A stretch of 64,000 nucleotides of DNA. Source: Candidatus Enterovibrio altilux (GTDB lineage: Bacteria > Pseudomonadota > Gammaproteobacteria > Enterobacterales > Vibrionaceae). The first letter of the stretch is position 1, and each line of letters starts with the position of its first letter. The position numbers and the translations under genes were made by a program. This document shows, one piece after another, positions 38,907 to 44,101 of the stretch. The notes below the pieces were generated by a model. The model was given only the letters and a program-made list of their open reading frames with translations. It had not been told where the DNA came from and made no database searches. The DNA is taken from contig NZ_CP020660.1 of assembly GCF_002381345.1 (NCBI RefSeq), positions 186,001 to 250,000 on the forward strand, read 5' to 3'.

Positions 38907-39779
38907 GGGCTTTGTTGCAAAAAAATCAACCAAAACTCAGAATTTAATTCTGTCTTTTCTGATCTAGTGACTCAATGACCAATCTCGCAGTCAAATGGAA
39001 ACATTTTGCTCCTGAAATCATTCTTTGGTGCCTGCGCTGGTATGGTTCGACCCCAATGAGCTACGCCAACTGCAGCGACATGCTGACAGAGCGAGGGGTT
39101 TCGGTTAACCGCTCGACCATTTATCGTTGGTTCATGGAATATGCCCCCAGCATTACGCAAGAAGTTACGTCGCCATCAATTCATCCGAGCAAATTTTGCG
39201 TGGTAGCTCGATGAAACCTACGTCAAAGTGAAAGGGATATGGCATTATCTGTATCGAGCTATCAATAAGCAAGGTGAGACACTGGGCTGCTATTTCTCCC
39301 CCAAAATGTAATAAAAGCACGGCTTATCAGTTCTTGAAACGGTGTCTAAGATACTATGATGTAGACACTCCGCCTAAGACCTTGAACACAGACAAGCATT
39401 CCTCGTATGCTCATGCTATCTCGCGTCTGAAGAAGGAGGGACGACTGCAAGCGGATGTCGAGCAACGGCAAGTGAAGTATCTCAATAATGGTATCGAGTC
39501 CGATCACACTCCTATCAAGAAGCTCGTTGTCAGCTTCGGCAATTTTAAAATACGAAAGCGAGCCTGGTCAACCATCGAGGGATTCAAATCACTGCGAATG
39601 TTGAACAAAGGCCAGTTTGATTTCTGGTTACGTCATGATGAGGGTAAAACTCTTGTTCGGGAGAGATCCGCCTTCATGAATCGTCTCTTCAATGTTGAGG
39701 TGAGTTATCAGTAATCGTTAAGCCCATTACTGGGTAGATCTGCATCCTATAATTAGTTATAACAACCCCGAATTAAGTG
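38907..39779 (+). mobile_element. IS6-family element, copy B
   Basis: About 870 bases, beginning GGGCTTTGTTGCAAAA and ending TTATAACAACCCC. Nearly identical to copy A but inverted. The two copies bracket 478 bases. Confidence 0.87.
38975..39714 (+). pseudogene. IS6-family transposase, frameshifted (copy B)
   Basis: Same gene as in copy A. An extra C in the run after ATATG (39144-39149) shifts the frame just after WFMEYAP. The run of five C at about 39299-39303 shifts it again, as in copy A. The last third (MRHWAAISPPKCNKSTAYQF to the end, NVEVSYQ) is open and keeps the second Asp and the Glu. Confidence 0.9.
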
Positions 39780-40228: not shown

Positions 40229-41125
40229 ATGAACAATAAAAATCAAAGAACAAACATCATAGCTATTGGTGGTGGGCACGGCTTAGGCCGCATGCTTTCT
40301 GCGCTTAATGAATGCGGAGATCAGGTTACAGGTATTGTCACCACAACCGATAATGGTGGTTCAACGGGTCGAATTCGAGCCTGTCAGGATTGTATCGCTT
40401 GGGGGGATACCCGTAACTGTCTTAACCAATTAATAACAGAACCTTCTATCGGTTCAATGATTTTTGAATATCGTTTTAAAGGAAATAGCGAACTAAATGG
40501 CCATAATTTAGGTAATTTAATGTTAACCGCATTAGATAACATGTCTATTCGCCCTCTAGAAGCGATCAACCTGATTCGTAATATGCTTAACGTATCCACA
40601 CATATCATTCCTATGTCTGAATATCCCGCTGATTTAATAGCACAAACTCATGCAGGACAAATAATATCAGGTGAAACTAACATTGATAATCTCAAAGAAC
40701 CTCCAGCACTACTCATGCTAAAACCTATCGTACCCGCGACCAAAGAAGCCATACAAGCAATTAATGATGCAAAATTGGTTATTCTCGGACCAGGCAGTTT
40801 TTTAACCAGCGTAATGCCTCCCCTTTTACTTCCTGAAATCAATCGAGCACTTGAATGCACACCGGCAAGAATAATCTTTGTACGGAATTTAAGTAAAGAA
40901 GCTGGTCCTGCAAAAAAAATGACGCTGAGCACCATATTAAAATGGTGTGAACGTTCCATGGGCGGAAGAAAAATTAACTTAGTTTTAGGGCCAGACAACG
41001 ACGAAACCATCGAAGAAGTCTATCAACAAGTATCTGTGGATTTAGCATCCGTAAGCCACCAGTGGCGGCATGACCGTGATAAGCTTTCGCAAGCAATCAA
41101 AGAGATCCTACTAGGTGATGAATAA
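40229..41125 (+). CDS. yvcK: YvcK/CofD-like gluconeogenesis factor
   Basis: The protein is 298 aa. It shows the nucleotide-type loop IAIGGGHGLGRMLSAL, TTDNGGSTGRIR, WGDTRNCLNQL, FEYRFKGN-ELNGHNLGNLML and LGPGSFLTSVMPPLL, all characteristic of YvcK (YbhK in E. coli). In Bacillus the family is needed for growth on gluconeogenic substrates and for normal cell shape; the reaction is unresolved. In vibrios the gene lies between luxU (convergent) and moaA (divergent). A luxU relic is indeed found converging at 41166, while moaA is absent upstream. Confidence 0.92.
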   Translation: MNNKNQRTNIIAIGGGHGLGRMLSALNECGDQVTGIVTTTDNGGSTGRIRACQDCIAWGDTRNCLNQLITEPSIGSMIFEYRFKGNSELNGHNLGNLMLTALDNMSIRPLEAINLIRNMLNVSTHIIPMSEYPADLIAQTHAGQIISGETNIDNLKEPPALLMLKPIVPATKEAIQAINDAKLVILGPGSFLTSVMPPLLLPEINRALECTPARIIFVRNLSKEAGPAKKMTLSTILKWCERSMGGRKINLVLGPDNDETIEEVYQQVSVDLASVSHQWRHDRDKLSQAIKEILLGDE

Positions 41126-41165
41126 CACTTAACTGTTAGTCACCAATTCATCTTTCGAATTATGT

Positions 41166-41400
41166 TTAATAATTAAATAAATCGCTCTGACTAGTTAACG
41201 CTTTGTATTCAGAAGTCGTACGCTGCTGCATAGACATTAGATATAAAAGTTGCGCATGTACCCATGCTTTTTATCTAAATTTTCCATGTCCCACATTTTT
41301 AAGTCAGTTCTGCCAATTCATCTGTACCAAAATTGGCAATACTATTTTTAATCGCATAACTAATTTCACAAACCTAGCTCGCACTTTGTCTTCCTACGAA
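41166..41400 (-). pseudogene. luxU: Relic of luxU (quorum-sensing phosphotransferase)
   Basis: On the minus strand one frame reads EISYAIKNSIANFG then TDELAEL, which aligns with the HPt site of LuxU (EISHALKSSAASFG then ADRLCER). The phospho-accepting histidine is replaced by tyrosine (TAT). A stop and a frameshift follow; another frame then continues to a TAA at 41166-41168 with QQRTTSEYKAL near the end. The N-terminal half is removed by the IS5 fragment that starts near 41403. The position fits vibrio synteny: luxU converges on the yvcK/ybhK gene. luxO is not in the window. LuxU relays phosphate from quorum-sensing kinases to LuxO. Confidence 0.65.
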
Positions 41401-41402
41401 CT

Positions 41403-41658
41403 GGTCACAATAATAGCTAAACTCCTCACTAAATAAACAAAGTTTTTCGCGATGACCTCGCTTAGTCTAGTTCCATAGATGAATGGCTTCTTCATCACTC
41501 CAGAATGTTAGTTAGCCACGATTGATTAAAGCTTAATCACACTACTCTTCGTTGGTTTTTTCATAGCGAAACTTAAGCATAAATTTGAATATTTAAGCGA
41601 AGCTAACTGTTTAAAACGTAGATTAATAATCTAGTTCCCTTATTTAGGAAACAAAACC
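41403..41658 (-). mobile_element. IS5 5' fragment
   Basis: Minus-strand first quarter, ending TTATTTAGGAAACAAAACC at the left end. It truncates the luxU relic. Confidence 0.8.
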
Positions 41659-41790
41659 TATTTTCTATGGAATGATTATTCTAGTTCTTATCGATGGCAA
41701 GTGTAGTTCTGATCATGTGTTCATTTATTTAACGTAGATTAACTGTTGTGGCTACCATTAACGTTAAGTACCATTTTGTCAGCAGGTAAA

Positions 41791-41999
41791 AGCTTTTTTC
41801 CCTAATGCAAGCTCAGATAGCAAATCTCCACATGATTCACGGTGAAACAATAGCTTTCATGTTAGGCATACCTAGTCTTGTCAGCTTATTTAACGCTTTT
41901 ATCATGGCATAGATTTAGCTAATCTAAGTTGTGTGATTTCTTAAACTCAATGCTCCTACCAGTAGTTTGAGATTCAAAATATTATCGTTTATGGTAACC
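41791..41999 (-). mobile_element. IS5 3' fragment, inverted
   Basis: Right end AGCTTTTTTCCCTAATGC through to the internal position ATGGTAACC at 41991-41999, where it joins the left end of the next copy. The same junction is seen at 29737. Confidence 0.8.
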
Positions 42000-42785
42000 G
42001 GCTTTATTTGTTAATCAGGGAGATAAATTTTCAATCAATATTCTAAATAGCTAGATTAGCTTAAATATTCAAGTCTATGAAGAAGCCTCGCTACAAAATA
42101 ACCAACTTGAAACAGTACAATCAAGTTTTAAGCAATCGTGGCTCACTAACATTCTGGATTAATAAAAAAAACATTCAGTTATGGAACAAAACTAAGCAGG
42201 GTAATAATGAAAAATAAAAAAGTATGGCGCTTATAGGAAACGGTTAGCCGGACGCAAGTTACATTTAGCGGTAGATATAAATATGCATGAAATCATTGCT
42301 GCTCAGTGAAGTGCTTCAAATGTAGCTAACGGTGCAGTGCTACCTAACTGACTCAAATACCCACCGAAAAATTAATGAAATATCAGATGATGGTGCTTAC
42401 GACATCAGACAATATTGCGAACCAGTTCGTATTAAACAAGCGGTTCAACTTATCTCACCAAAAAAAGGAGCACGTTTTAAAAAACGAGGTCATCTGTATA
42501 ATTTAGTGGTTAGTTACCAGAAGGTACACGGTTCAAGTCAGCATTAAAAAATGAGATATGGTTACCATAAACATTCCCTATTAAAGACAGCAATGGTTCG
42601 AATTAAAAAAACTCCTCGGAGGAACATTGAACTTAAAAGCTCACAATACTCAGATTAGCGAAACCTATGCAGTGATAAAAACGTTCAATAAGCTGACCAA
42701 ACTAAGCATGCCTTAAACGACAATGATTGTTTCATAGTTCATCATGCTGAGATTTGTTATCTGCATTCAAACTAGGACACAAAGT
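42000..42785 (+). mobile_element. Decayed IS5-family copy with internal deletion
   Basis: Plus strand, from GGCTTTATTTGTTAATCAGG to CTAGGACACAAAGTC. About 250 bases around the first catalytic Asp are missing. Confidence 0.85.
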
Positions 42786-42871
42786 CTCATTAAACATGCA
42801 TATTACCTTTTAACCAAAAGAAAGTTATTGAAGACATAATCATTTAATTTTTTCCATATACGTTAAGCCTG

Positions 42872-42894
42872 AATAGCTAAACTGCTATTTTTTT
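42872..42894 (+). terminator. Terminator-like hairpin upstream of pheS
   Basis: AATAGC-TAAACT-GCTATT followed by T6. In relatives rplT precedes pheS. No rplT is present here, so this may be the orphan terminator of a lost upstream gene, or a pheST leader attenuator. Confidence 0.45.
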
Positions 42895-43117
42895 AGTTTA
42901 TTACTAACAAAGACGAAAACTAATCATGATAAGCACGTAAACGTATTTTCAGTTTGGCTTTATTACGTTGTTTATTTACTATGTAACATTACGCATATAT
43001 AAATTATCAGGGTAAAACTAGCTGATGCAAATTAAGATTAGTTTGTGTATCTTGTGACGAGAACTGGTATACCTTTTACTCTGTAAGTAATCGCTAGACA
43101 AGATGGGTAAGGAAACG

Positions 43118-44101
43118 ATGCAACAACTAGAAAATATTCTATCCAACGCAACATCGACCATCGAAGCATCTGATTCAATTGTAGCTCTGGATGAAGTGCG
43201 CGTTAAGTACCTAGGTAAGAAAGGTAAGCTGACCACACAGCTTAAGGCTCTTGGTAAACTGCCACTTGATGAACGTCGTGAAGCTGGCTCGAACATTAAC
43301 AAAGCAAAGCGAATGGTTCAGCAAGCGATATCTGAACGCAAAAATGCATTAAAAAGTGCTGAACTTGAAGCCAAGTTAGCTACTAGTGCTATCGATGTAA
43401 CTCTCCCAGGTCGCCGCATGAAGAACGGTGGTCTTCACCCAGTTACGCGTACCATAGAACGCATTGAAAATTTTTTCAGTTACTTGGGCTTTGATGTAAA
43501 AACGGGCCCGGAAATAGAAGATGCATTCCATAACTTTGACGCGCTGAACATTACAGAAGATCATCCATCTCGCACTGGTCATGATACCTTCTTTTTTAGC
43601 CCAGACTTGATGCTACGTACGCACACCTCTGGGGTTCAAATTCGTATATTAGAAGAAAATCAACCACCATTACGATTCATTGTACCTGGACGCGTTTACC
43701 GAAATGATTATGACCAAACGCACACCCCAATGTTCCATCAGGTAGAAGGTATGATGATTGATGAAAATGTTAACTTCGCCCAATTAAAAGGGATCCTTAA
43801 TGACTTCCTATGCAACTTCTTTGAAAAAGATCTTGAAGTACGTTTTCGTCCCTCCTACTTCCCATTTACGGAGCCTTCCGCAGAAGTGGATGTTCGTCAT
43901 AACAATGGTAAATGGTTAGAAATTTTAGGTTGCGGTATGATTTCCCCTAATGTACTGCTCGCTGTTAATCTCGACCCAGAACAATACTCAGGTTTTGCCT
44001 TCGGTATGGGTGTTGAGCGTTTAACCATGCTGCGTTACGGCGTGAACGACCTGCGCGCGTTCTTCGAAAACGATTTGCGTTTTTTGAAACAATTTAAGTA
44101 A
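43118..44101 (+). CDS. pheS: Phenylalanyl-tRNA synthetase alpha subunit
   Basis: Catalytic subunit of the alpha2-beta2 class II synthetase. I choose ATG 43118 ([18 protein letters not shown]) over 43103 because it gives the family length of 327 aa and is preceded by TAAGGAA. The N-terminal coiled coil carries VKYLGKKG. Class II motif 2 is visible in [20 protein letters not shown] and motif 3 in [17 protein letters not shown]. Other conserved blocks are [35 protein letters not shown] and [17 protein letters not shown]. pheT follows after 19 bases. Confidence 0.97.

Follow-up and report, generated by a model that had tools for sequence, protein, structure and literature searches.

The 64,000-nucleotide stretch of the Candidatus Enterovibrio luxaltus genome analyzed here (the window) contains a dead luxU gene, which confirms the central observation of an initial annotation made from the sequence alone. 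From comparison with relatives we consider a wider reading probable, in which transposons broke the gene block that held luxU, the Vibrio-type control of light was lost, and a branch made of SypG and an HPt derived from SypF was kept, presumably fed by a kinase. Our literature search found no published account of either the luxU relic or the SypF remnant.

The luxU relic

The features around the relic are as follows.

40229-41125, plus strand: yvcK/ybhK-type gene (CofD family), the conserved convergent neighbor of luxU; open, ORF of 298 aa, Pfam CofD 265.6 bits
41166-41450, minus strand: luxU relic covering LuxU residues ~25-116, with two stops, a 2-base deletion and TAT as the phospho-acceptor His codon
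41426-41664, no strand assigned: transposase debris abutting the luxU relic and replacing its 5' end, the last bases overlapping the relic call; repeated three or more times elsewhere in the window, with the copy in locus L004 matching PF13737
41790-42787, no strand assigned: further transposase-family debris where relatives have luxO; likewise with three or more further copies across the window
43103-44101, plus strand: pheS-type gene (phenylalanyl-tRNA synthetase alpha; ORF and Pfam), the next open gene past the break

The intact LuxU of the sister symbiont E. escacola was used as a query against the whole genome of E. luxaltus CC26 (2,143,356 bases, of which the first contig has 1,604,691). 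Six first-look candidates were all scored, and the only places matching at E ≤ 10 were the two halves of the relic, with E = 2.5e-8 and 1.2e-5. LuxU residues 25-75 correspond to window positions 41290-41442 and residues 79-116 to 41169-41282, both on the minus strand, where the translation reads ...VCEISYAIKNSIANFGTDELAELT*. A tblastn search over nine sequence stretches returned the identical two pieces (E = 8.6e-15). They score 47.0 and 41.6 bits, whereas 200 shuffles of window positions 41126-43102 in two-base blocks gave no single piece above 20.8 bits, and the similarity to LuxU is thus beyond chance. The position agrees. All 12 relatives (G001-G012) have a LuxU match oriented convergently with yvcK. 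The relic shares this arrangement, as the annotation had supposed. The location it gave (41166-41400) was right, but the relic reaches past 41400 to 41450.

The match with E = 2.5e-8 spans two stops, and that with E = 1.2e-5 spans one, which is either the natural end of luxU or a further stop. The stop codons are TAG and TAA, and the 2-base deletion is seen in the same alignments, in keeping with the stops and frameshift originally described. Roughly the first 24 codons are absent. The relic is therefore like the LuxU of Vibrionaceae, the HPt of the quorum phosphorelay, in sequence, in length to the stop codon and in its place beside yvcK. It differs in being dead, with stops, a frameshift, no start and no open frame carrying the phospho-acceptor His.

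The annotation had suggested a profile search with the HPt/LuxU family as a check. The Pfam Hpt model gives no match on a 48-residue stretch of the relic, and the relic locus is absent from its matches in the E. luxaltus genome. Detection takes LuxU itself as the query. Even intact LuxU proteins of relatives stay below the NCBIfam LuxU cut-off of 140 bits, with scores of 84.6 and 90.3. Because all LuxU, LuxO and HapR reference proteins score below NCBIfam's own cut-offs, we have named these proteins by best model, gene order and identity.

Extent of decay

We counted changes at those first and second codon positions, 143 in number, that the relic covers and that do not vary among ten relatives, several of which are near-identical; the divergent LuxU of the more distant relative G002 (L113) was left out. 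The relic is changed at 36 of the 143, compared with 6 of 143 in the luxU of E. escacola (Fisher p = 4.7e-7), where the forcing of alignments to the reference columns (--keeplength) may inflate the changes in decayed parts, here as elsewhere; the stops seen by tblastn are independent of it. When five third positions are added there are 37 changes in the relic, of which 25 are G>A or C>T. The phospho-acceptor codon is TAT, compared with CAT or CAC in four aligned relatives. The replacement of the His by Tyr noted earlier is thus correct at the level of the codon, but it is a C>T change and one decay change among many, and no replacement of function. Tyr as a working phospho-acceptor substitute is ruled out, since the reading frame is disrupted both before and after it. 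CC26 was sequenced at a coverage of only 14x, according to the accessible text of the genome paper (PMC6020299), and an error of sequencing or assembly might thus be imagined in an otherwise intact luxU. We regard this as very improbable, given that the damage runs along the whole gene, with 36 of 143 conserved positions changed, and that the 5' end is absent, with copies of a repeat alongside.

Transposase debris and the broken gene block

The repeated transposase-family DNA that replaces the 5' end of luxU starts at 41426 and, with a gap, ends at 42787. The L004 copy aligned to the segment next to the relic is a piece of DDE transposase (PF13737), which upholds the truncation by an insertion sequence; the label IS5 comes from PMC6020299, as far as its accessible text goes. 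No luxO fragment was detected within the debris at 41426-42787. The transposases of this genome are said, in the published text accessible to us, to be almost all IS5. In contrast, just before yvcK, at 39274-39714, there is a piece of a transposase from a different family, PF13610 (DDE_Tnp_IS240).

In the relatives examined uvrB, qrr, luxO, luxU and yvcK form one block, and in E. luxaltus the two ends of this block are ~71 kb apart. At the uvrB end there is a decayed 3' half of qrr1 (contig C1, about 156377-156432). It was found by blastn from three relatives (E = 5e-9, 5e-9 and 9e-6), the match being partly to uvrB itself. Rfam gives no Qrr match at this remnant even at E ≤ 10, and its search of the uvrB and E. 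escacola loci returned two matches, both far below cut-off and to animal families. These remains suggest that an ancestral uvrB-qrr1-luxO-luxU-yvcK block was split by a transposon-driven rearrangement. The break would have left luxO gone, luxU as a 5'-truncated pseudogene beside yvcK, and the decayed half of qrr1 beside uvrB ~71 kb away.

Loss of the quorum-sensing arm

A LuxO query gave 17 matches in E. luxaltus at E ≤ 10, the best 54% identical and the next three 36-45%, and no LuxO ortholog was found among them. Each of the relatives G001-G011 has one ortholog, at 69-89% identity. The best match in E. luxaltus (54%) and that in E. escacola (56%) both lie inside a row of syp genes. Among the matches listed, 11 of the 13 genomes have a further LuxO-like gene with at least 54% identity; in the other two (G006 and G007) the next match is at 42%. 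The LuxO-like gene of E. luxaltus (C1:178608), 47 kb from the relic, was rejected as luxO, having 54% rather than 69-89% identity and a place in the syp row, and because relatives hold both genes. It scores 622.5 bits with the NCBIfam LuxO model against a cut-off of 800, under which a relative's own LuxO (777.8 bits) also falls. An intact luxU-luxO pair elsewhere in the genome, which would tell against the loss, was looked for and none was found. The nearest approach to one is the paralogous HPt-SypG pair 47 kb away.

Qrr RNA scores above the Rfam cut-off in 10 of 13 genomes (144 candidates scored per genome), the exceptions being E. luxaltus, E. escacola and G002. The best Qrr (RF00378) score in E. 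luxaltus, with 144 of 228 first-look candidates scored, is 21.1 bits against a cut-off of 50. A LitR-type protein is likewise present in 10 of 13 genomes and missing from the same three. The LitR query has no match in E. luxaltus at E ≤ 1, and the single TetR_N protein of this genome was rejected as LitR, being FabR. G002 has luxU and luxO, with no Qrr above cut-off and no LitR match, in an assembly of 330 contigs. LuxS was found in none of the 13 genomes, and production of AI-2 by LuxS in this genus is unlikely.

The annotation had proposed loss of the LuxU step. There is indeed no LuxU, but this is too narrow; since LuxO, Qrr and LitR were also not found, an arm has been lost and not one step. 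Control of light by the Vibrio quorum pathway looks to be lost in E. luxaltus, as the absent genes and the relics indicate. In its accessible text PMC6020299 reports no orthologs of known luminescence regulators, and this is borne out for E. luxaltus; the intact luxU of E. escacola is an exception.

E. luxaltus, an anglerfish symbiont, was correctly taken to be luminous: luxCDABEG are open, with Pfam matches for C, D, A, B and E, and G is of reductase type. We infer that these genes must be expressed without control by the Vibrio pathway, and that light is now probably independent of density. Alternatively quorum control was swapped and not lost, the light genes having come under an AHL LuxI/LuxR pair or some other regulator. 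This is quite unlikely in view of the lack of known luminescence regulators reported in the accessible text of PMC6020299 and of the absence of LuxS from all 13 genomes of the group. As to why LuxU became dispensable, the annotation had pointed to life at permanently high density. Erosion by transposon debris would remove luxU equally, without any benefit from high density, and anglerfish symbionts have been argued, in the published text accessible to us, to be acquired from the environment.

SypG and the HPt remnant of SypF

The gene at C1:178608, rejected above as luxO, is the LuxO paralog SypG. It is open, has receiver, sigma-54 and HTH_8 domains, and stands after sypA-E-type genes, and is thus a LuxO-like sigma-54 regulator in a syp-type row. 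We take the genes of this row to be sypA to sypH. The presence of sypF and sypG in E. luxaltus is also in print.

Just before sypG is a 150-codon frame in which Pfam recognizes an Hpt domain, at 32.4 bits and above its cut-off. The frame can be aligned to the C-terminal part of SypF from the relative G004, a protein of 1017 residues. Its phospho-acceptor His is invariant in 10 of 10 aligned sequences. It is modeled as a helix bundle (pLDDT 85, pTM 0.74), whose best match in the PDB is HptB of Pseudomonas (E = 8.4e-4; TM 0.87 by target). The frame therefore has both the Hpt domain with its His and the expected fold. A PDB search with its sequence gave one match only, at E = 0.11. The frame has no stops over 113 residues, which is weak support on its own. 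As we read it, translation would begin at a TTG or at an ATG inside the frame, and an evident ribosome site is lacking.

Changes at conserved first and second codon positions were counted in SypF, SypG and YvcK against seven relatives, with G002 and the incomplete G005 set aside. In E. luxaltus SypF the kinase (ATPase) is changed at 18 of 72 positions and the receiver at 45 of 166, but the HPt at 7 of 116 (p = 3.7e-6 for HPt versus receiver). In E. escacola the corresponding values are 34/107, 12/177 and 6/116. Decay thus ends at the receiver-HPt border in E. luxaltus and at the kinase-receiver border in E. escacola. SypF in E. luxaltus has lost its kinase and receiver, leaving a free-standing HPt gene. 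In the syp locus of V. fischeri an HPt with conserved His is likewise followed by a LuxO-like sigma-54 regulator, but there the HPt belongs to SypF, whereas here it stands alone; in G004 it is the end of the 1017-residue hybrid kinase, and in the sister it is part of a 276-residue receiver-HPt.

We suggest that the cell produces this HPt and that it serves SypG. It could also be a younger relic, all regulators being in erosion and the HPt of SypF dying too, its apparent constraint reflecting recent loss or chance. The 785 pseudogenes predicted for this genome in the accessible text of PMC6020299, the decay of kinase and receiver in sypF itself, and the lack of a clear ribosome site at a TTG or internal ATG start would all fit general erosion. 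Yet the HPt has 7/116 changes compared with 63/238 in the rest of sypF. Its 7 changes lie inside the range of 0 to 11 found when each relative is left out in turn, and its rate is like those of YvcK (32/457) and SypG (31/721) in the same genome. Moreover the sister species has equal constraint on its HPt beside a decayed kinase part. We therefore think general erosion unlikely as the explanation, and favor a maintained HPt.

The sister symbiont

E. escacola MJ02 is like E. luxaltus in that no LuxO, Qrr or LitR orthologs were found, SypG is open, and the kinase part of SypF is decayed. Unlike E. luxaltus it has kept the SypF receiver and an intact luxU (117 aa; L013:8884-9237, minus strand), which is constrained (6/143) and lies beside two short luxO fragments. 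Lacking LuxO, this LuxU therefore needs another partner, perhaps SypG. The 476-residue SypG (L155:8283-9713) and the 276-residue receiver-HPt frame (L155:7289-8119) are together on contig C37. The paring of SypF has reached different end states in the two symbionts, which may nonetheless share its first step.

In print, as far as the accessible text goes, sypF and sypG are given as present in E. luxaltus but as giving no BLAST match in any of the E. escacola genomes. One E. escacola assembly with SypG and a receiver-HPt puts this absence in question. Similarly, judging from G. hollisae, the accessible text of PMC10162802 has no SypG in the Grimontia-Enterovibrio group, whereas several relatives examined here possess one.

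A candidate relay

SypG of V. fischeri receives input from both LuxU and SypF (accessible text of PMC12369376 and PMC10162802). The E. luxaltus genome has five HisKA kinases, the class on which our listing is based, other kinase types falling outside it. Two are hybrids with their own HPt and two have no receiver. The fifth, a 625-residue hybrid with a 630-residue counterpart in E. escacola, combines kinase and receiver, lacks an HPt and, as the only one so constituted, is our candidate for the donor to the HPt. Separately, L004:1013-2913 (C1, about 650650-652550) holds fragments that we tentatively read as a disrupted second gene of cheA type; a 111-codon frame among them matches Hpt.

Upstream of sypA in E. 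luxaltus there is a sigma-54-like GG-N10-GC pair at -51 and, using the motif given in the accessible text of PMC10162802, a one-mismatch SypG site at -160. The motif is not above shuffles in this region (3 seen, 1.8 expected); what suggests a putative site is its recurrence in one relative, G004, which has the pair at -44 and a SypG-type site at -122. The domain make-up and the constraint are consistent with a relay in which another kinase, most simply the 625-residue hybrid, would pass phosphate to the free-standing HPt, which would hand it on to SypG, and SypG would turn on the syp polysaccharide genes through sigma-54. The light arm would then have been lost and the polysaccharide arm kept.

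A fuller version can be put forward only tentatively, as possible rather than probable. Both symbionts would each have pared SypF to its output end beside SypG, and in E. luxaltus the HPt would replace LuxU as the branch point, fed by the hybrid kinase that has no HPt. The cascade would thus be split at its fork, with control of light discarded and control of attachment kept, and the LuxU of E. escacola, left without LuxO, would serve SypG.

Implications

What is new here is the domain-wise paring of SypF, with a constrained free-standing HPt beside an open SypG. It offers a case from nature of a hybrid kinase pared to a free-standing phosphotransfer protein, and questions the printed claim that syp regulation (sypF, sypG) separates the two anglerfish symbionts. 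The published absence of luminescence regulators becomes dated wreckage, with relics that show that the pathway existed and how it broke. If our reading is right, it would show which half of a forked signaling cascade a host-bound light symbiont can drop, and which it keeps.
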